Shown: positions 52,340 through 62,635 of the stretch, in pieces
How positions within the stretch are numbered: position 1 is the stretch's first letter
How the letters are laid out: each line of letters begins with the position of its first letter
Virus record (IMG/VR): IMGVR_UViG_3300028394_000072
Coordinates: 1 to 64,000 of that record
From: a virus
Reading direction: 5' to 3' (one strand)
Length of the DNA stretch: 64,000 nt
Notes under the pieces: generated by a model
What the model was told of the DNA's origin: nothing
What the model saw: only the letters and a program-made list of their open reading frames with translations
The model's database searches: none
Position numbers and translations under genes: made by a program

Positions 52340-55300
52340 TTATACGAATTGAATAAAGCCTCCCGCTGCTATACCACCTGTTCTGGTAACAGTAATTCTA
52401 TTTATGAACTTCTGTATACCTCTAGCAGGTTCGATGATAACGTCTATGATTCCCATATTCATATCAATGATTGCTGGAGTGTTATTAGAAGCATCCATAA
52501 CAGTTTGGTAGTTGTATATTCCACCGCCTGCTCTAACGCCATCTAGGTAGTTATCAACTAATGTTTTAATTTCAAGTCTAATTGAATCGTCATTAAAATC
52601 AAATAGGTAGTTAGAAAGAATTGACTGAACGTCTGTTTCGATACTTATTAAAAGGTCTCTTACGTGAACTAAGTTGAATGCAGAGTTAACTTGTTGATAA
52701 GCAGTTTGGTTACCAAAGATAACTACCCCAATCCCTCTTCTTTTGATGATCGGGTTAATACCGAATGGTTCAAGATTTCCTCTGTCCTCATCGGTAAAGT
52801 CATATTCAACACCCACGATATTACCGCCTCCGCTTAGTATACCTCTTTTTTGACCTGCGATAATTGCATAAGGTTCTCCAGTAGCAAATTTTCTAACAAA
52901 GTTATTAGATACCATAGCAGCTGGTGGTACGTTTATATTTCTATTAGATTCTCTGATAGTGATATAAGGAGCGTAGAATGCAGCAAATTTAGATCCCTCT
53001 GCTTCACTAGGTAAACTGAAAGTATATGAAGGATTTAAAGATAGGTTACCCCCGTCAGCTATATAAGCAGTATTTAAACTTGGATAAGGATTAACAGCTG
53101 TAGGTGCGTTGGTAAATCTAGGATCCGTACTCTTCTGAAACTGTTCCATAGAAGGCGCATTGATAAGAGCAAGCGATTGCTGTCTAATCATTGCTAATCT
53201 ACTTAATTGATATTTAGAGTTAGGTAAAATTTGTCCAGAGAATGTATCTACTACGTATCTGAATGATATAACGTCCTTAGAAGCTAATGTCTGAGCAATA
53301 TTTGTATCATACATAACATCTAGTATGGTAGAAACCCTAGCATCAGTTCCGTTAGGTCTATGTGATTCTTTCATGGTAAATCCAGAGAGATAAGTGAAAT
53401 CAAAAGATCTTGTAAATTGAGATATCGATGAGAATTTCTGAACTCTTGACATATTACCATTTCCTGAATAATAAAGAACTGGTCTAGCACATGTTGCTTT
53501 ATAGGTTCCTGATGTAGTCGTAGAAGCAACTTTAGTGATCTTAGCTAATCTGCTTTGTTGATTGCCTGTTTCAGGTACGCAGATGTCAAGGTCAGTACAT
53601 ACTACCAAATCTCCAACCGACATAGGTACGTTTCCGTTTGCATCTTCTGTTATGTAGAATGATGTTGTGTCTATTCTAGTACAATCTACGAATTCATTAA
53701 TCGATCCCTCTTGAGAAATTATATCGAATTTTTGCGATGATACCGCAGTACCGATATTATCAGAAGCATATGTTGCAGCGAATAATGCTATGTTATTTAT
53801 AGTATTACCAGCTAAAGAAACGTTTGTGTGGGATCTTGTGTTAACGTAGTTGAATTGATCCCTATCTACTGTGTTTTCGAAAGTAAGGTAATTTACGCTT
53901 GTTCCCGCAGAGTTTAGCCAAATAATATCTCCGTCCATTATTTCGGTATATTTAACATTCTGGAATAATGTTGATGCGTTATAAGCTTGGAGAACTCTTG
54001 AGGTTCCAGTTGTAGCATTCGGACCGGTTACCCCATTAGGCGTAGGTACGTTGCTAACTAAATCTAGATAATCTGAATTACCGAATTGATAAGCGCTAGT
54101 GTAAAAAGGTTTAGCACTTCCTGAAGCTCCTGTATTATATGAGGTTACCTTATAAACAGGAGATACTGTTATACCTTGAGATCTATAGTAAGATGTATCT
54201 AATGGATGGCTAAAGAATATTCTAAGCTCGTTATTAACGTCTTTAGTTCCAGTAACTTTAAGTTTAACCAAATCATGTAAAGAGAATTGGTTGATTAATG
54301 CTCCAGTTGCACCGGAGATACCTTCAACTATACCCATTATGTATTTCTGGTCATCCGAAGAGTTAACAGTTAAGAAAGATTTTAGCTCATTCTTCTGTGT
54401 TGCATTTAATAAATAACCCGCAGTTCCACCTGTTCCTGATGTTTGGAGATAATGTAATCCCGCGTCATAAGCAGAAGAATCGTAAGGAGCAAAAGCTTGG
54501 TAAACAACTCCTGCTGTTGTACCTGCGTTGATTGCGAATAAAGTACCTGCTTTCATACCGGATGTGTATCCAGTAGCTCCTGTAGGACCCGCAAATCCAC
54601 CAGCTCCAGTAACACCTATTACATTTTGTGTGTAAAGGTAATCTGCAACTAATGCCTGGTCATAACTTAGGAAGTTAATTGTAGGATTAGCTAAATCCCT
54701 GTCTCCCGATAATTCATCAATCAGGTGATTACCTACTAAATCTATTGTGTATGGATTAGTACAAATATTATCAAATGCTTCTTCGTCAATAGCACAGAAT
54801 AAACCTGTTGCTGGCGAATTAGAATTTACTAAGGTTTGTATGTATTGATTAACACCATTAAGATCCACGAAGTCTGGAATTATACATCCTGTTACTGAGG
54901 TAACTATATTAACATCCTGTTGGCTAAGGAATGAATCAATTTGGCTTTTTATGAATCCGTTATTAGTAAAGTAGCTAGACCATTTTGGATCTAAAGCTAA
55001 AGCTGCATAATTTGTCCAATCCCCAGATACTGCTATTACATCAATGAAATAATCTGAAATATAGTCGTAAGGGTGCATGAAAGTAGGAACGTTATTAGCT
55101 CCATACCAATCTAGTGCAAAAATATCAAAACCTTTTAAAGGTTTTGAAGAGTCAGTAGACTTTCTAGTAATCACACTGATAGGGGTTTTACCCAAGTTAG
55201 TTAAAGCAAATAGCTTTCCTGTGTCAGGTGTACTTAATGTAGCTAAGAAATATTTTGTATCTGCGTACCAGAATCTTTCTTTATTATAGTAAGATGAATA

Positions 55301-55690
55301 TAACTCAGAAGTTACCACTCCGTTATATTGCTCGGTATCAAGAGAGTATGCTCTATATGTAACCTCATCTGCACTTCCAGTATCTGTGTCATTATTAAGC
55401 TTCAATAAATTTAAACCGAAAACCGGTCCAGTATTTAAACAGGTTAATATCGATCGGTGGAAGAAAGACCCCTTATTTTCTAAGGATCTATCAATGTCTC
55501 CAAACACAGAGATCATAGTAGTAGGATCAGGAATGTATACAGGAGTATTGAAAGGTCCCTTATTAGAGAAACCCACAACCAATCTAATCGTTTGAGATGT
55601 TAGGATAACGCTTTGTGACGCGTCGAATTCAAGAGTATAAACCCCTGAGGCTTTAAACTGTGAATAGTCTATTTTAACCTTATTTGCCAT
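52340..55690 (-). CDS. Tail sheath protein (gp18-like), enlarged
   Basis: A 1116-aa contractile sheath subunit. The N-terminal FKASGVYTLEFDASQSV and RLVVGFSNKGPFNTPVYIPD and the C-terminal third (SEAEGSKFAAFYAPYITIRE, NVPPAAMVSNNFV, RGIGVVIFGNQTAYQ, ARGIQKFINRITVTR) fit T4 gp18, whose 659 aa are much shorter. The extra ~450 residues lie in the middle and include a Gly/Thr-rich stretch with GPTGATG; they probably form surface domains on the outside of the tail. The late promoter at 55715-55740 precedes it. It is followed by the two tube genes, as in T4. Confidence 0.93.
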   Translation of the reverse strand: MANKVKIDYSQFKASGVYTLEFDASQSVILTSQTIRLVVGFSNKGPFNTPVYIPDPTTMISVFGDIDRSLENKGSFFHRSILTCLNTGPVFGLNLLKLNNDTDTGSADEVTYRAYSLDTEQYNGVVTSELYSSYYNKERFWYADTKYFLATLSTPDTGKLFALTNLGKTPISVITRKSTDSSKPLKGFDIFALDWYGANNVPTFMHPYDYISDYFIDVIAVSGDWTNYAALALDPKWSSYFTNNGFIKSQIDSFLSQQDVNIVTSVTGCIIPDFVDLNGVNQYIQTLVNSNSPATGLFCAIDEEAFDNICTNPYTIDLVGNHLIDELSGDRDLANPTINFLSYDQALVADYLYTQNVIGVTGAGGFAGPTGATGYTSGMKAGTLFAINAGTTAGVVYQAFAPYDSSAYDAGLHYLQTSGTGGTAGYLLNATQKNELKSFLTVNSSDDQKYIMGIVEGISGATGALINQFSLHDLVKLKVTGTKDVNNELRIFFSHPLDTSYYRSQGITVSPVYKVTSYNTGASGSAKPFYTSAYQFGNSDYLDLVSNVPTPNGVTGPNATTGTSRVLQAYNASTLFQNVKYTEIMDGDIIWLNSAGTSVNYLTFENTVDRDQFNYVNTRSHTNVSLAGNTINNIALFAATYASDNIGTAVSSQKFDIISQEGSINEFVDCTRIDTTSFYITEDANGNVPMSVGDLVVCTDLDICVPETGNQQSRLAKITKVASTTTSGTYKATCARPVLYYSGNGNMSRVQKFSSISQFTRSFDFTYLSGFTMKESHRPNGTDARVSTILDVMYDTNIAQTLASKDVISFRYVVDTFSGQILPNSKYQLSRLAMIRQQSLALINAPSMEQFQKSTDPRFTNAPTAVNPYPSLNTAYIADGGNLSLNPSYTFSLPSEAEGSKFAAFYAPYITIRESNRNINVPPAAMVSNNFVRKFATGEPYAIIAGQKRGILSGGGNIVGVEYDFTDEDRGNLEPFGINPIIKRRGIGVVIFGNQTAYQQVNSAFNLVHVRDLLISIETDVQSILSNYLFDFNDDSIRLEIKTLVDNYLDGVRAGGGIYNYQTVMDASNNTPAIIDMNMGIIDVIIEPARGIQKFINRITVTRTGGIAAGGFIQFV

Positions 55691-55714
55691 TATTTTTTAA
55701 GATATTTTTTGCTT

Positions 55715-55740
55715 CTTTACTATATATCGAAATAGAAAGT
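55715..55740 (-). promoter_or_regulatory. Putative late promoter (TTTCGATATATAGTAAAG)
   Basis: The minus-strand TTCGATATATAG motif lies about 36 bases before the sheath ATG at 55690, between the terminase C-terminal gene and the sheath. It would drive sheath and both tubes up to the terminator at 51096-51124. Confidence 0.5.
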
Positions 55741-55763
55741 AGAATATTAGATCAATTGAATCT

Positions 55764-57695
55764 TCAGAGCAATTTATTGAAATCACCATAGCTTCTTCCA
55801 TCTTTAGTCAAAGGACCTTTGTTTCCGTATCCGTATTCATCATTTTCTGTTGCAATCCCAGCTTCGAGCTTTGCTGTTATTAGTTGTTTGTATTCATTGT
55901 CAAGTTCATCAAAGACATCACCGACCATTTGGTTGAAATCATATCCATCAAAAAGACCCGGTAGATTCACTAAAGTCATTGCTACGTCATCATGTCCGGT
56001 CTGGCTAGAATATGTTCCCCTGTTATTAAGACCGAATGTAAATAGTTCAGGAATTGTCCATTTCTTATCATTTACTAAGATTTTACCCTCCCTTATTAAA
56101 CTTCTAAGAAGTTCACAGTACTTCATCTTGTTTTTTTCATTGTATTTAATACCGGGTTTTAGAATCCGAGCAGACTCTGAGTGTTTTGTAAATAAAAACA
56201 TCTCATCATAATAATCATCATCAGTCATTAGTTTTTCATAAAGCAATTCACCCTTAAAATTCATCTCAATAGCTAATTTAGTTCTATCTATGCTTACAAC
56301 TTTTACTAATCCTCTTAATAGCTTAACCAGCTCCTCTAATTTTATCTCATTATCTCTAAAAACCCCAACCTGTACAAGTCCGAAGAAATCCGACTCATCT
56401 TCAAATTCCTCTATTGCTTCTATTACTTTTTTAGGTAAGGGGGTAACCTTGAATATATTAACAACAGTAAAATCACCTTTTATTCCTGCGCTTATATCAA
56501 CAGAAAAAACGAACTTCTTCCCAGGGGAATTTGCGTTATCTAAGTTAAACTTAGGATGCCATAGGAGTTTTTCGTAATTAAGACTTTCCTCGTAATGTAA
56601 GCAATCTATCTCTCTCCATTCATATTCAACTTCATTAGACTTAATTTTTTTAAGCTCATTGGAGCCTAAAAGTAAAGATGAAGAGCTTAAGAATTGGTTA
56701 CCGTATTCCTGATTGAAGAGTTCCTCGCTTCCAAGGTTACCTATTTCCAGTTGTTTCCATGCTTCGTCTCTTCCTGGAACTTGCCACCAATCAACCCTTA
56801 TTGGATTAAAACTATTCTCTCCAGTGAGAGCACCCTGGTAAATCTCATAGAATTTATTCATTCCATTCGGAGTGGATGTTATGATTATTCTAGATACCTT
56901 TGATGATGATACAGTAGGATACGTAGATCTAAAGAATGCTTCAATAAAGTTAGTATTAATATGAGCAAACTCATCCATATAAAGGAAGTGTATAGTAAAA
57001 CCGATACCTGATGTTTTAGTTGTAGTTTTAGCTAGAATTCTACATCCGTTATCAAATCTCATTGACATCACGTTATTAACTATCATTCCTGGTTTAAGAA
57101 AGAACGGAAGGCCTTTTATAATCGCCTTGATCTTATCCATTAACTCCTCTGCAGTATCGCCAACATTGGCTAGAATCATCGCATTTTTATCATGATTGAA
57201 TAAGAGATACCAAACAAGTATAATAGATGAAGTTATCGAGTTATGCGACAATATATTATTCGTATAATATCTATGGTCTGGGTGATCTATGGATAAATCC
57301 ACCATAGAAACAGGGATACCAGTATTTTCTATATACTTAACTCTAGAAGGACCCGTTCTTGTCATTAATAAATCTCCAGGATTTAATTCTTTTACCAAAA
57401 TCTCATTGTTGTTCTCATCAAATAGAATATGTATATCGGCACAATCTAAATGATCCCCATTTTCAAGTTCGATAAACCAAACATCATAAGGCTGGGTTTC
57501 TAAATACTTGAACGCCTTAACGTAACCGCTATCTGATAAAACCTTAGTGCTTATATCATACTCAGCTATTATCTTTTTATCCGGATCATCTTGGTCAAGA
57601 TCCAAATGTGAAAACTCATAGGTCTCTATTAAACTTATGAGTTTAAGTATGGTTTTTTTGAGTAATCTTTTTATTTTGGACTTATGTTTTTCCAT
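55764..57695 (-). CDS. Large terminase, C-terminal half with C-intein (gp17-like)
   Basis: A 643-aa protein. Residues 1-152 are the C-terminal part of a split intein: a VLSDSGYVKAF strand, LENGDHLDCADIH (block B-type), LNPGDLLMTRTG, and the end block VDLSIDHPDHRYYTNNILSHN (residues 132-152), followed by Ser153. Residues 153-643 are the large terminase body: Walker B LYMDEFAHI, RuvC-type nuclease FSVDISAGIKGDFT, AIEMNFKGELL and GHDDVAMTLV. Joined to the N-terminal half, the extein is 613 aa, like T4 gp17 (610). It overlaps the endonuclease gene by 14 bases. Confidence 0.93.
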   Translation of the reverse strand: MEKHKSKIKRLLKKTILKLISLIETYEFSHLDLDQDDPDKKIIAEYDISTKVLSDSGYVKAFKYLETQPYDVWFIELENGDHLDCADIHILFDENNNEILVKELNPGDLLMTRTGPSRVKYIENTGIPVSMVDLSIDHPDHRYYTNNILSHNSITSSIILVWYLLFNHDKNAMILANVGDTAEELMDKIKAIIKGLPFFLKPGMIVNNVMSMRFDNGCRILAKTTTKTSGIGFTIHFLYMDEFAHINTNFIEAFFRSTYPTVSSSKVSRIIITSTPNGMNKFYEIYQGALTGENSFNPIRVDWWQVPGRDEAWKQLEIGNLGSEELFNQEYGNQFLSSSSLLLGSNELKKIKSNEVEYEWREIDCLHYEESLNYEKLLWHPKFNLDNANSPGKKFVFSVDISAGIKGDFTVVNIFKVTPLPKKVIEAIEEFEDESDFFGLVQVGVFRDNEIKLEELVKLLRGLVKVVSIDRTKLAIEMNFKGELLYEKLMTDDDYYDEMFLFTKHSESARILKPGIKYNEKNKMKYCELLRSLIREGKILVNDKKWTIPELFTFGLNNRGTYSSQTGHDDVAMTLVNLPGLFDGYDFNQMVGDVFDELDNEYKQLITAKLEAGIATENDEYGYGNKGPLTKDGRSYGDFNKLL

Positions 57696-58821
57696 ATATG
57701 AAATCTATACATTTTTTTATTTCCCCTCTAGAATCTTTTCTGTAATCTGATTCCCATATAGTTAAAACTTCGTAACCGTGATTATTTGCAGCATCTATTT
57801 TGGATTTATCATATTCCCATATATCATTAGCAGAAATCATTTTTACCCTATTTATATATTCGGCTTCATATAACTGAGGATTGCAGTGCCAATAATCACC
57901 GTTAAATTCTATTATTTTTTTAATAGTATTAAATGTTAAATCATATTTATATGCATTTCCATTCTTAGTTTTTATGAACTTTTCTTTTTTACCATATAGT
58001 ATACAATTATCAATTTTTAATAATCTTGTAATATCAATTAAGGTCAGTATTAATTCATCAGCAATCATAGATCTGCCTCCTCCTATATGTGTATTTTCGT
58101 TAAATACTTTAGATTTCCACAGTTTCTGCCTATCTAACCATATTTTTTTACCCTCAATTTCTCCATGGTTTTCTATACATATATCAAGTGAAAAAGTTTT
58201 TTGTTTCTTTGAAACTGTTAAAATTGCATCCTCCTCGGTCATGCCTTTATTCATCCAGTATTCTTTTTTTACCCACGACACAACCTTAGTTTCCATTAAT
58301 TTTTCAGCCGCTAATTTCTTGGCAGATTCAATTGATATATTTGGATCCTTCTTTAGGTAAAAATCTGGGCTAAATGGGGAAACAGATCTTCTTTTCTCGT
58401 CAGTGGTCTTTGATTTGTGCATTGGATTATTCTCGCCAGAATATAAATTACTTAATCTAGCCCGATGTTTGGGTTCTCTCATTCTAGCACCTGCATTTTT
58501 TGAACCGGCAGTTATTGAAGATGTTAACTTCTCTGACATGGTCAAAAACCCAGGGAATAAAAGTTTATATGATTCTGCATTGTGCTCAGGATGATATTTT
58601 TTTAGGTGCTGCCCAGTTACAGAACCAACGGGGGATCCGCATATCTGACAGATCACGTAATCAACATTTATTATTCCTGACTCTAATAACTCATTTTCTT
58701 TTTTCTTCCTGTCATGTTCAATTCTACAATTTTTGCTACAGAAATGAGATATATTGGCTCTTGTTAGATATTTTATATCGCAATATTTACAGACTTTTTC
58801 TACTTCCACCCTTTGTTTCAT
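57682..58821 (-). CDS. Free-standing Vsr-like (EDxHD) homing endonuclease
   Basis: A 379-aa protein lying exactly between the two terminase halves. The N-terminal zinc fingers are VCKYCDIKYLTRANISHFCS and CQICGSPVGS...HLKKYHPEH. A NUMOD3-like part (GENNPMHKSKTTDEKRR) follows. The C-terminal nuclease (AYKYDLTFNTIKKIIEFNGD, then YWHCNP, IWEYDKSK and GYEVLTIWESDY) fits the Vsr-like EDxHD family. It probably cuts uninterrupted terminase genes and promotes spread of the split-intein insertion. It starts 40 bases after the N-half stop with its own GATATATA motif, and the downstream half overlaps its 3' end. Confidence 0.9.
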   Translation of the reverse strand: MKQRVEVEKVCKYCDIKYLTRANISHFCSKNCRIEHDRKKKENELLESGIINVDYVICQICGSPVGSVTGQHLKKYHPEHNAESYKLLFPGFLTMSEKLTSSITAGSKNAGARMREPKHRARLSNLYSGENNPMHKSKTTDEKRRSVSPFSPDFYLKKDPNISIESAKKLAAEKLMETKVVSWVKKEYWMNKGMTEEDAILTVSKKQKTFSLDICIENHGEIEGKKIWLDRQKLWKSKVFNENTHIGGGRSMIADELILTLIDITRLLKIDNCILYGKKEKFIKTKNGNAYKYDLTFNTIKKIIEFNGDYWHCNPQLYEAEYINRVKMISANDIWEYDKSKIDAANNHGYEVLTIWESDYRKDSRGEIKKCIDFIYGKT

Positions 58822-58830
58822 AATAATATT

Positions 58831-58850
58831 TATATATTATATATCGCCAA
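58831..58850 (-). promoter_or_regulatory. Putative late promoter for the homing endonuclease (TTGGCGATATATAATATATA)
   Basis: The minus-strand GGCGATATATAAT motif ends 21 bases before the ATG at 58821, within the gap left by the split terminase. It would also give transcription of the C-terminal terminase half downstream. Confidence 0.5.
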
Positions 58851-58860
58851 GTCAAAAAAG

Positions 58861-59361
58861 TTACAATAAATTATATAAATAATATAATAAACTTTTACAT
58901 TTTTCTAATATTGTTATATTATTTGATGGTTTTAGCTTATTTATTGCTATATTATTGCCATTTGTGTCAATTATCTGGCTATTATTTAAAAGACATTTAC
59001 CAACCTGTCTAGGGGCTAGGAATATATTAAATCTATTTGCCTGATATTCTCTAAGTACAGAACTTTGATAATCCCTAAGCTTGATATAATTTAAACCCTC
59101 ATCTGTCATTACCTGGCAGTATTTAGAGAAATATGTAACATCTTCCGCACATTTTCTCATCTCGAGAATCTCTTCGTTAGTATACTCCCAAAGTATATTT
59201 GGTTTTTTTAGATCAGGATTTCCGTCATGAAATGGGTTATCCACTTCTTTGTAATCTAATCCCTCTTCATCGATTTTTCTAAGAAGTTCATTTACTCTTT
59301 CTGTGCTCCAATAGCTACTTTCTGATTGGGCTTCCTCTTTTTGTACTGCTTCTGAAAACAT
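58861..59361 (-). CDS. Large terminase, N-terminal half with N-intein (gp17-like)
   Basis: A 166-aa protein. Residues 1-122 are the terminase N-terminus: YFSKYCQVMTDEGLNYIKLR, DYQSSVLREYQ, and the Walker A start LAPRQVGK. The intein begins at Cys123 (CLLNNSQIIDTNGNNIAINK) and runs 44 residues to the stop. The insertion is inside the P-loop, immediately before its Ser/Thr; splicing with the C-half (starting Ser153) would restore a VGKS loop. A 44-residue N-intein with the other ~150 residues on the C-half is an atypical split position. It starts 2 bases after the small terminase stop. Confidence 0.93.
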   Translation of the reverse strand: MFSEAVQKEEAQSESSYWSTERVNELLRKIDEEGLDYKEVDNPFHDGNPDLKKPNILWEYTNEEILEMRKCAEDVTYFSKYCQVMTDEGLNYIKLRDYQSSVLREYQANRFNIFLAPRQVGKCLLNNSQIIDTNGNNIAINKLKPSNNITILEKCKSLLYYLYNLL

Positions 59362-59362
59362 A

Positions 59363-60142
59363 TTATTCTATTATATCGTCCTCGATAATGAAGTTGCTTT
59401 GATCTTCCTCGTCGTCTTGCGGACGGAATTTATCATCAATCAATTTTTTTTCTCTCGCATTAACAACGGAGTTAGGATCAAGTTCTATAGGTTTAACATC
59501 AATAACCTCGTTTCCTAGTATATCTCTAAGACCCTCCATTATACCTCTTGTTCCCCTAGATCTTATACCAGCTCCATCCGTATTAGAAGGATAGAAACTA
59601 TTACCCTCGCCCGTCTGATTTTGGTCCATAACTACTCCACCTGAATGTTTCTTTACTTCAAGTTCTGCATTTACCCTTTTATAGCTCTGCTCCATTTTCT
59701 CAAGGTAAGCCTGATAATCCTTGGGCATTTGCATTATTTGAGATTGAAGCTGAGCAAGCACCTCAAAAATTCTAGGATGCATGTTTCCTAAATCTATCTC
59801 TTCTAGTAATTTAGTGATCGCATGTTGAGCAGATTTCATCTGAAACATCATCGATGAAACGTTCATAGCATCAACTTTTTTCTTAACATCAAGAAATTCT
59901 ACGTGCCCGTGAGCGTCAGGATCTACATAGAATTTTGCTACTGAATCCATTAAAAATCTGGCCTCTGTTAAAGCACTGAGCTTCTCGTCGGCAAAATTCA
60001 TGAGTTCTGATGTTTTTAATCTCGGAAGGTCTCCAGAATCTAAAGAAATTGAATCCAGAGATTCTTCCATTATTATGGCATCTAGATTTTCTTTTATTTT
60101 CTCCTGTATTACCTTCTCTGGTTTAGGTTTTCTTCTTGGCAT
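59363..60142 (-). CDS. Small terminase (gp16-like)
   Basis: A 259-aa protein with a central all-helical core of coiled-coil type (SELMNFADEKLSALTEARFL, then MKSAQHAITKLLEEI and PKDYQAYLEKMEQSYKRVN). The polar N-terminus is Lys-rich and the C-terminal tail is long and acidic. T4 gp16 is 164 aa. The gp16-like ring stimulates the large terminase; the location directly before it supports the call, as sequence alone is weakly conserved. The C-terminus is unusually acidic. Confidence 0.75.
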   Translation of the reverse strand: MPRRKPKPEKVIQEKIKENLDAIIMEESLDSISLDSGDLPRLKTSELMNFADEKLSALTEARFLMDSVAKFYVDPDAHGHVEFLDVKKKVDAMNVSSMMFQMKSAQHAITKLLEEIDLGNMHPRIFEVLAQLQSQIMQMPKDYQAYLEKMEQSYKRVNAELEVKKHSGGVVMDQNQTGEGNSFYPSNTDGAGIRSRGTRGIMEGLRDILGNEVIDVKPIELDPNSVVNAREKKLIDDKFRPQDDEEDQSNFIIEDDIIE

Positions 60143-60145
60143 ATT

Positions 60146-62635
60146 TTATCTGTTTCTAGCGAACTTAGGTATGTTCAGCAATGGTTTAGCATTATCAATT
60201 ATGTGTGCTAGTTGCGAATCCCTTACTGTGTTTTGATTTAAAACAGTAGATTGGGTATCAACATCTATCATATTTTTAAATAGTCTTATATTACTTAGAT
60301 ATATCGGACCTGTGAATATTTTATAGGCATTTGTTTCTGTTCCATAGAATGGACTTGCTTTATCTGTGTTAATATTAGAAGGTGCGGCAAATAATATAGG
60401 CTCAGTAAACATTCTAACTTCCTCGTGTAGCTTTTTTAATTTACTAGATTGCTCGTTCGGATTAACAGGATCGTAGGTCATCCCCCATATGTTAGCTGCT
60501 ATCTGTTTATATGTATTAGAAATATTAACAACTACGCCATACCATTCCCCGTATTCTGGTGTAAATTGTAAAGGAGAATTTATGATCATACTATTAAGTC
60601 TTATAACCAAGCTCCCCTGGTCTAAGAAAGGATTAGTATTTTCGTCCATTACTCCTGAGTGTATTAGATCTACTCTCATACCCTTCATGTCAGAATTAGC
60701 GTCTAAATAAAGACCGCTTATTAAATTTCTACTTTGTGCTTTTTGTACTTTCCAAACTATAGTTCCCTCTGAGAAAGTGGTTGAGTTATTTTTGACAGTA
60801 AATCTATACTCGTCAATAACTGATAAAACCTCATATCCACCAGAGTGTAGCTTATCAGCTCTTATTGCAACATAGCCTTCGGGATTTGTAGCATAGGTTT
60901 CCCATCTTTCTAATCTATGTCTATTGGGATAAGTACTTAAATATAAATAATCAGAATCAGAGTTCTCTAGGGTTGCATTTAATATCGGATAACCTCTTTT
61001 AGTCATCTTTGTGTTATCGTAGAAATCTCTTAAAGTGAACCAACAAGTGTATGCTAATTCCTCATTATCTCTTAATAAAGGAAGTGACTTATATCTAACA
61101 GCATTCTTATATCTGCTAGGATCGAATATAAATTCAGGTGTATCAGAAAAAGCTTCACTTAGATCATAATAGTTATTTAAAACTATTGTCCAGTTATTAT
61201 TAAGATCGTATTCGATTATCGGAAGATCATTATAAACATAAGATCTGATAGGATCCTGAGACATCTGTGTTATTGTGGTAGCGTACTGTTGTGGCTTAGA
61301 AGACTTTAGCTCCTCAGATTTAACTTCTTCTCCGAATAACTCCTGAGTAGTTACCGCTATTCCTTCTAGTTCCTCCTTGTATGCAGGATCTTGAAAATAT
61401 GTATTACTTCTAGGACTGTATTTCTGTAGCTCTATTTTAAAATAAACCGGAGCATTCATGAAATCCCTGAATAAATAAGTTGAATTTATTTCGTAAATTC
61501 TATTAGTTATAGGGAAGTAAAGAATATCTCTCTTTCTAGGTTGTGATCCTTTACCAAATATGCTTTCAAAATATTTTCTATCTATTTGAATTTCAAAAGG
61601 ATTTTCAAACTGAAGTCCAAAAGGATCATAATTTATTTTATTATCAGGAAATTGATTTTGGGGAACTAGTATTTTAACACATTTCTCATCAACAACATTG
61701 AAAAGAGTGTATTCTCTAAGAATAACATCTTTACCCCTTCCCTGAGGCTGTACAGAATAATAGTTTGCTTCTAATCCAAAAACTTTATTAACCATCTGGC
61801 TTAAATCCTGATAAAGATTTAAAGCTTTATTTACTGCATAAGGATTGAATGTGAAATTACAATCACTAAATATAACGGGTCTAGTTGAAACCTCATTAGA
61901 ACATATTAGTGCAGGTTTTGATATAACTTTCTCTGGTGTAGGAGCATATTCAAGATCAAGTTCAAATTGAACTATCACTATGCTAGGATCTATTGGTTCG
62001 TCTGTATTATAGATTAATGTGCCATCATCATTGACAAGGACAGAGGTAAATCTGAATTCGGGGTAGAACTTATTATTGGGATCTAAAGTTATTTCAAAAA
62101 GATCCGAGAATTCGTTTGTTAATCCTCCTAAAGCTGTTCCTACATTTGTCCAAAGAGACCATGTTTTTCCGTCTATGCTATATCTGAAATCTATAGCGAT
62201 ATCATCAGCATCTAATATAGATCCCGAATTATTACTGTTTCCTGTATCAATTATCCATCCCTTAAATTTAGTGACATATGTAAATGGATTATCCCACGAT
62301 AGAACCCTATAATTACCTATATACGTGAAGTTTAAGGCACTATCTAGCTGTTCTATTCTGGTATTATAGTAATCAATGCTATCGCAAGGCTTGTAGTAAG
62401 TTTTGCCCTCTATTACAACTGTGTGATATCCTTCACATCCTATTTGTAATGCTCTAGCTTTTGCAGATTCTGGGGTAGCAAAAAGATTATCTACTGAAGA
62501 TTTTTTAATCTTATCAGTATTCTGCAACCCGTCATGATATTTATATCTTATATCGGTAAGATCGTATTGCTCCCCGCTTCCGTTATAAACTGGGGTTCCT
62601 TTCTTAGGAAACTTGTCCTCTGGGTTAAAACTCAT
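60146..62635 (-). CDS. Large neck/head structural protein, part gp14-like
   Basis: An 829-aa protein, rich in Tyr, Asn and Pro, typical of virion components. A central block, FGKGSQPRKRDILYFP then ITNRIYEINSTYLFRDFMNA and PVYFKIELQKYSPRSNTYF (about residues 360-410), resembles T4 gp14-type neck proteins (R-x-x-D-x-x-Y-x-P...R-x-F/Y-E-I...F-x-x-x-L-x-x-Y). The C-terminal half has beta-sandwich-like parts that could bind carbohydrates. Its place before the terminases matches neck genes in T4. The gp14 similarity is partial, so the role is tentative. The promoter is at 62655-62668. Confidence 0.55.
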   Translation of the reverse strand: MSFNPEDKFPKKGTPVYNGSGEQYDLTDIRYKYHDGLQNTDKIKKSSVDNLFATPESAKARALQIGCEGYHTVVIEGKTYYKPCDSIDYYNTRIEQLDSALNFTYIGNYRVLSWDNPFTYVTKFKGWIIDTGNSNNSGSILDADDIAIDFRYSIDGKTWSLWTNVGTALGGLTNEFSDLFEITLDPNNKFYPEFRFTSVLVNDDGTLIYNTDEPIDPSIVIVQFELDLEYAPTPEKVISKPALICSNEVSTRPVIFSDCNFTFNPYAVNKALNLYQDLSQMVNKVFGLEANYYSVQPQGRGKDVILREYTLFNVVDEKCVKILVPQNQFPDNKINYDPFGLQFENPFEIQIDRKYFESIFGKGSQPRKRDILYFPITNRIYEINSTYLFRDFMNAPVYFKIELQKYSPRSNTYFQDPAYKEELEGIAVTTQELFGEEVKSEELKSSKPQQYATTITQMSQDPIRSYVYNDLPIIEYDLNNNWTIVLNNYYDLSEAFSDTPEFIFDPSRYKNAVRYKSLPLLRDNEELAYTCWFTLRDFYDNTKMTKRGYPILNATLENSDSDYLYLSTYPNRHRLERWETYATNPEGYVAIRADKLHSGGYEVLSVIDEYRFTVKNNSTTFSEGTIVWKVQKAQSRNLISGLYLDANSDMKGMRVDLIHSGVMDENTNPFLDQGSLVIRLNSMIINSPLQFTPEYGEWYGVVVNISNTYKQIAANIWGMTYDPVNPNEQSSKLKKLHEEVRMFTEPILFAAPSNINTDKASPFYGTETNAYKIFTGPIYLSNIRLFKNMIDVDTQSTVLNQNTVRDSQLAHIIDNAKPLLNIPKFARNR

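Follow-up and report, generated by a model that had tools for sequence, protein, structure and literature searches.

A phage large terminase probably interrupted in its Walker A loop by a mobile split intein and a free-standing homing endonuclease, with the split predicted in a helical hairpin

Genes fractured by a split intein, together with a stand-alone EDxHD homing endonuclease (HEN), were reportedly described by Dassa et al. in 2009, the inteins being mostly split near their C-terminal end. That study is cited in PMC11766414, PMC13014065 and PMC12350094. Two other split inteins, AceL-TerL and GOS-TerL, have a terminase as host, as their names indicate. Here we analyze the large terminase (TerL) locus of IMG/VR virus record IMGVR_UViG_3300028394_000072, a metagenomic contig of which positions 1 to 64,000 constitute the window, i.e. 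the whole stretch of DNA studied. Neither a split intein with a free-standing endonuclease nor an atypically split TerL intein is new in itself; the position of the split, and the helical hairpin that carries it, set the window apart from the described cases. According to two sources (PMC11766414, PMC13014065), the N-parts of AceL-TerL and GOS-TerL comprise 25 and 37 residues, with the split after helix α1, and the consensus Cat-TerL comprises 30 + 104 residues. The latter source also describes VidaL, with a 16-residue N-part split after strand β2, and natural atypically split N-parts of 15–37 residues with two split positions, after β2 or after α1 (PMC13014065). That length range covers the cases observed so far and is not a definition.

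The locus resembles the fractured genes of Dassa et al. in that a split intein breaks the gene and a Vsr/EDxHD endonuclease gene lies between the halves; it differs in being split early, within a predicted helical hairpin. With AceL-TerL and GOS-TerL, it shares the terminase host and a short N-part, and its family profile matches CatC, which was engineered from their consensus. However, the window has 44 + 152 residues, with the split carried by an extra hairpin. VidaL (PDB 6vgv) likewise has a short N-part and is both the second-best sequence match of the family profile and the best Foldseek match, but its 16-residue N-part, split after β2, contrasts with 44 residues ending at a hairpin loop here.

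In our reading, which we hold with a probability of about 0.9, a mobile split intein accompanied by a free-standing homing endonuclease has inserted into the Walker A loop of a large terminase of the T4 gp17 type. An intact terminase that would depend on trans-splicing is the best-supported reading of the sequence. The features are as follows (ORF, open reading frame; relatives are denoted by locus numbers beginning with L).

58861..59361, minus strand: TerL N-half ORF, 166 residues, with stop; matches large terminase PHROGs 5989 and 36964
58996..59361, minus strand: N-extein, 122 residues, C-terminal APRQVGK; adjoins the C-extein directly in empty-site relatives, e.g. L005
58864..58995, minus strand: intein N-part, 44 residues, starting at Cys1 (CLLNNSQ...YNLL); residues ~29–44 form the first hairpin helix according to the L036 model
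57682..58821, minus strand: free-standing HEN ORF, 379 residues; its final 14 nucleotides overlap the C-half start; Vsr TIGR00632 match below cut-off, predicted fold like Vsr and I-Bth0305I
58726..58791, minus strand: putative zinc-binding CxxC...CxxxC region of the HEN, residues 11–32, from cysteine conservation among 19 aligned proteins
58369..58437, minus strand: NUMOD3-like GENNPMHKSKTT...SPFS stretch of the HEN, identified by inspection
57685..58068, minus strand: HEN nuclease domain, residues 252–379, predicted Vsr/EDxHD-like fold
55764..57695, minus strand: TerL C-half ORF, 643 residues, with stop; Pfam Terminase_6N (3.4e-12), PHROGs 2 and 36964
57240..57695, minus strand: intein C-part, 152 residues, C-terminal ILSHN, block B region CADIHILF
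57612..57665, minus strand: second hairpin helix (predicted), C-half residues ~11–28, conserved KK..L..I...E; helix 47–64 of the L036 model
55767..57239, minus strand: C-extein, 491 residues, starting at Ser+1 (SITSS)
57240..58995, minus strand: whole insertion, 1756 bp, at Walker A codons GGT AAA / TCx, between Lys and Ser; exact empty site in L005

TerL is thus encoded by two ORFs, one with 122 extein residues followed by 44 of the intein, the other with 152 of the intein followed by 491 of the extein, and the HEN ORF lies between them, as in a fractured gene. The two halves have large-terminase families in common among their matches, PHROG 5989 (7e-20, 5e-26) and PHROG 36964 (1.5e-11, 8e-30). 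A preliminary description, made from the sequence alone, had placed the stop of the N-half 44 residues past an intein-type Cys in the Walker A loop, read the C-half as ~152 intein residues ending ILSHN followed by Ser and the terminase body, added the exteins up to 613 residues as in a gp17-like large terminase, and recognized a complete endonuclease gene between the halves. The ORFs and terminase matches bear out this layout.

Relatives were collected by searching IMG/VR with the C-half, and the best 80 of 317 TerL loci, many of them near-copies, were analyzed. The exteins adjoin exactly, in frame and without an insert, in 68 of the 80. An intein is present in ten; L018 is insert-free with a frame slip, and the contig of L021 starts inside the C-extein. 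The closest empty relative among these 80 is L005, a contig of 348,582 bases, whose C-extein is identical at 491 of 491 residues and whose nucleotide identity to the window is 99.2% upstream and 98.7% downstream, over 9.5 kb. An endonuclease is found in seven of the ten intein-bearing loci (L002–L004, L012–L014 and L019, the N-half of L012 lying past its contig end) and is absent from L006, L059 and L036. The two-ORF layout is retained in lineages with 68–74% C-intein identity.

These comparisons bear on two alternatives. Both halves are intact ORFs, as they would be if they worked as a two-subunit terminase without splicing. This is distinctly improbable, as the break falls inside Walker A, both halves have intein residues next to the break, the exteins are joined in frame in most relatives, and contiguous forms of the intein exist. 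The metagenomic origin of the contig would also allow an assembly or frameshift artefact, with the halves joined in the real genome. Such an artefact is very unlikely, the least probable of the explanations considered, because L002 and L003, separate contigs with different sample numbers, are 99.6–99.8% identical to the window across the locus, have the same layout and keep the halves apart. L004 and diverged relatives also share this layout, and TerL is fractured in an isolate, Campylobacter phage F379.

Several TerL relatives have further peculiarities. L119 and L121 combine a split intein at Walker A with a second, contiguous mini-intein near Walker B. In L097, L103 and L104, the C-part has an extra ~80–100 residues near C-extein residue 160, with no visible intein ends. 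L102 has two similar ORFs of no known kind after the HEN, between the TerL halves.

The identity of the intein is indicated by its residues, its family and a predicted fold. The window has the residues of a class 1 intein (C1, CADIH, LSHN and S+1). In 39 aligned rows of the family, no variation is seen in ADxH, the block F Asp or the terminal Asn, and the penultimate His is nearly invariant. Among the 39 members, 34 match Pfam Intein_splicing (PF14890) at E≤0.1 (best 2.5e-10). The family profile A5, built without N-halves (an early alignment of these to a contiguous intein, A3, had misplaced them), matches inteins in the PDB: gp41-1 (2e-12), VidaL (4.7e-12), CatC (5.5e-9) and NrdJ-1 (6e-4). 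A profile from 31 rows, none of them in the window's clade, still detects the window (9.1e-50). The AlphaFold2 model of the contiguous homologue L036 (predicted local distance difference test, pLDDT, 89.9) has a Hint fold, with VIA Z scores of 19.5 for NpuDnaB (1.4 Å over 126 residues), 19.1 for gp41-1 and 18.9 for VidaL; its best Foldseek match is VidaL (5.5e-9). The preliminary description had proposed an intein profile search as a check. At the family level this search was positive, with matches to solved inteins as well, while the window halves alone gave none. Matching a curated profile is usual for inteins and does not define them, and the assignment is kept because of the fold, motif and family evidence. 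The C-intein end varies within the family: the window type is LSHN, L103 has LSLN, and L237 (LR756500) has LSSQ before Thr.

In the proposed mechanism, two precursors of 166 and 643 residues would be made separately. The 44-residue N-part would dock onto the 152-residue C-part, aided by the pairing of two hairpin helices, which form one hairpin in the model of the unsplit relative. The completed Hint domain would splice by the standard route, using Cys1, the block B His, the C-terminal His-Asn and Ser+1, to yield a 613-residue terminase with an intact P-loop (VGK-SITSS). The HEN would cut the intein-free allele, and repair would copy the whole 1756-bp element.

The element has evidently moved horizontally between phages, because it is nearly identical in L004 while the flanking genes diverge. 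Nucleotide identity between L004 and the window is 99.3% for the N-intein, 97.9% for the HEN and 96.7% for the C-intein, as against 84.0–88.8% for the exteins and tail sheath gene. Synonymous divergence is 0.04, 0.07 and 0.14 for the three parts of the element and 0.95 for the C-extein. On a TerL tree, intein presence needs nine changes, at least seven of them forced by well-supported branches; the tree is a quick one, with some long branches, of 52 chosen rows (16 with intein, and 36 empty ones picked by hand from the 68 clean empty loci). The L004 pattern and the scattered presence on the tree are as homing predicts. The ratio of nonsynonymous to synonymous divergence (dN/dS) against L004 is 0.08 for the C-intein and 0.14 for the HEN, with few changes in the element; these ratios show the C-part and the HEN to be under constraint. 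For the C-extein, dN/dS is ∼0 against L005 and 0.03 against L004.

The HEN was searched against Pfam, NCBIfam and PHROGs, where it matches Vsr (TIGR00632) at E = 0.002, below the cut-off of that model. Among 19 aligned HEN proteins, that of the window included, matches at E≤0.1 were to MTES_1575 (15), DUF559 (8), NUMOD3 (4) and Vsr (1). The structural model has a pLDDT of 85.8 and a pTM (predicted template modeling score) of 0.39, with unsure domain packing, and the fold comparison covers the nuclease domain. This domain resembles Vsr (1cw0; VIA Z 11.6, 17% identity, Foldseek 6.6e-3) and I-Bth0305I (3r3p; VIA Z 10.0, 96 of 97 residues at 2.8 Å, 20% identity, Foldseek 0.10). D294, E305, H312 and E357 are invariant in the 19 proteins, as alignment positions rather than as residues mapped one by one onto I-Bth0305I. 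Previously, the protein had been described as a Vsr-like EDxHD endonuclease with NUMOD3 and zinc-finger modules. The predicted fold agrees with the first part; NUMOD3 has no match in the window's own HEN, its matches being in four of the 19 aligned proteins, and the sign of the zinc finger is cysteine conservation, complete at C28 and C32 and nearly so at C11 and C14, with no good profile match.

When the HEN was used for the search, the best 80 of 264 loci, near-copies included, were analyzed. The window's own C-intein matches 76 of these and A5 matches 78, A5 having been built in part from loci counted here. Eight hosts without a matched TerL N-half were examined and comprise five DnaB-like helicases, two clamp loaders and one TerL. 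The HEN probably spreads the element, and the empty site together with the L004 pattern suggests that it would cleave the intein-free allele. In L110, L118, L127, L136, L143, L148 and L152, the same HEN–intein pair is found in DnaB-like helicases or clamp loaders, just before the S/T of an apparent P-loop.

Several points weigh against a functional trans-splicing element. Splicing and cleavage of this sequence are inferred, as is the role of the hairpin as a docking element. Searches of Pfam and NCBIfam with the window halves gave no intein model at E≤1, and PF14890 has no match anywhere in the record at E≤10. The predicted Hint fold is that of the L036 model, not of the window's joined halves. 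Block B of the window has Ala at a position that is usually Thr in inteins. The N-intein is weakly conserved, with 34–39% identity to five aligned relatives and proportions of nonsynonymous and synonymous differences (pN/pS) of 0.43/0.55 against L006. The HEN family profile found nothing among PDB sequences at E≤1, which is why fold comparison was used for it. A5 overlaps in part with the loci it counts, and these include near-copies. The record is a 68.6-kb fragment, which leaves room for a second TerL elsewhere. The missing single-sequence profile match, the weakly conserved N-part and the incomplete record would fit a dead intein in a broken or decaying terminase gene, the phage using another TerL or being defective. 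We regard this as unlikely in view of the low dN/dS in the C-extein, C-intein and HEN (though with few changes in the element), the catalytic residues that are invariant or nearly so in the 39 rows, the maintenance of the two-ORF layout in diverged lineages, and the single match to Terminase_6N within the 68,644-base record.

The split itself is best described with the L036 model, in which a strand (residues 7–9) and a second strand (15–17) are followed by helix 18–22, helix 28–42, loop 43–46, helix 47–64 and long strands; residues 21–30 are the least sure (pLDDT 64). By alignment to this model, the window N-half ends at the end of helix 28–42 and the C-half starts in loop 43–46. The prediction thus places the split past the α1-like helix 18–22, in a loop that joins the two helices of an additional hairpin. 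Conserved positions include K..LY..Y in the N-tail of the one intein part and KK..L..I...E in the C-head of the other. The early break had been assigned to the known atypical class. The short N-part, with block B (CADIH) in the 152-residue C-part, agrees with this assignment, but 44 residues exceed the published range of 15–37, and the split coincides exactly with neither published position, coming after a further helix. A literature search that lacked most subscription papers and the originals of 2009 and 2014 turned up no account of a split within a hairpin.

Among the 35 TerL loci with both halves, four with N-parts of 34–40 residues have short C-heads and 31 with N-parts of at least 42 have long ones; three of the four are neighbours in the tree, from which the fourth (L116) was omitted, and they do not count as independent cases. 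The lengths of N-part and C-part show no significant correlation over the 35 loci (rho 0.23, p 0.18, with the uncorrected value for L105). L105 was placed by eye, as the script mistook an earlier GDIH for block B.

The element occurs in several states among the relatives. L006 and L059 are split without a HEN, with 42 bases from the N-stop to the C-start. L126 has a contiguous intein with the HEN in front of the gene, and in L111 and L112 the HEN is on the opposite strand between the TerL halves. In L036 the intein is contiguous, and one frame is open throughout. This open frame is relevant to the possibility that the insertion is removed at the RNA level, as an intron of group I or group II in which the endonuclease is encoded. 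Vsr/EDxHD-like endonucleases occur in introns too (PMC12350094, PMC3943268), and ICP1 splices its terL transcript (PMC10448857). However, no Rfam intron was detected in 55500–60200 at E≤1, the lone match being an implausible microRNA (E 0.58), and at both ends of the insertion conserved intein termini are encoded in the reading frame of the exteins. Together with L036, these observations leave removal as RNA only a slender chance, and we continue with the split intein.

In L156 (1774–3127), the frame of a contiguous TerL intein runs without interruption across a 319-codon HEN gene that lies in another frame. The intein frame has no stops, compared with a mean of 19.8 and a minimum of 7 in 20,000 synonymous recodings, and with 10 or more in every one of 58 other loci, a comparison that set aside 20 loci with the HEN in the same frame as the C-half. 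The arrangement is known from one contig; the next HEN relatives are at most 44% identical, and the arrangement did not recur among the open frames listed. The nearest precedent found is an out-of-frame HNH gene inside an in-frame insert that has no intein (PMC11855218).

Contiguous rows stand apart from one another on the C-intein tree. Ten near-identical copies and L116, L138, L122 and L123 were dropped from this tree before counting, along with every locus that lacks a matched TerL N-half other than L012, L157 and L165. A tree in which nine split rows exclude L036 was not rejected by the approximately unbiased (AU) test (p 0.231). Re-fusion in L036 is favoured solely by the split state of the wider family; the direction of change may have been fusion or split.

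Among isolated phages, we examined 12 of 2,496 GenBank phage records (six Campylobacter phages and six others). F379 has an endonuclease between its TerL halves, and CP220, CP20 and WX1, also Campylobacter phages, have a contiguous TerL intein. CJLB-12 has no endonuclease and its TerL frames are unjoined, possibly owing to a sequencing error. CJLB-12 and F379 share 99.5% identity downstream of the site and 95.3% upstream of it, and CP220 is 95–97% identical to F379 around it. These Firehammervirus loci resemble the window in having a TerL P-loop intein and, in F379, a fractured gene with an endonuclease gene. They differ in that the insertion is three residues earlier (RQ|SSK), the endonuclease is weakly T5orf172-like (E 0.004, below cut-off), and no long hairpin is visible in the sequence. 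In LIMEstone1 and Kuja (Ackermannviridae), a contiguous intein occupies the site of the window's insertion (GK|T), and LR756500 (462 kb, L237) has the split form with an endonuclease and hairpin-like ends. L239, L241 and L242 are Campylobacter Firehammervirus TerL loci, one genus in three states (F379, CP220 and CJLB-12).

We lean slightly towards a broader proposal, in which a helical hairpin has been grafted onto the Hint domain and its loop, as seen in the window, is a third position at which inteins are split in nature. The half-hairpins would recognize each other and replace the covalent link, and the wider family would move both ways between states: contiguous, split with a nuclease, split after nuclease loss, rejoined, and contiguous with the nuclease gene in a second frame. 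As far as we know, few natural series are available for the origin of split inteins and the reversal of splitting. The relatives described above carry the empty site, the split form with and without nuclease, and the contiguous form, and the isolates show three states, so that both questions become testable. Pairs split in the hairpin might also yield new tools for protein ligation. For these phages, the packaging of DNA would hinge on the joining of two proteins.

We considered a late promoter before the HEN (58827–58834) and rejected it, as the motif TATAAATA, which we take to be the T4 late promoter, has 14 copies in the window compared with 13.7 expected. A-rich leaders without a clear Shine-Dalgarno sequence precede the HEN and C-half starts (58822–58862 and 57690–57740), and likewise in the relatives shown. 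The neighbouring genes are as follows.

60146–62635, minus strand: head-closure gene (PHROG 679), first in gene order
59363–60142, minus strand: gene without a PHROG match, at the place of the small terminase, between the head-closure gene and the TerL N-half
52340–55690, minus strand: tail sheath gene, after the TerL C-half in gene order

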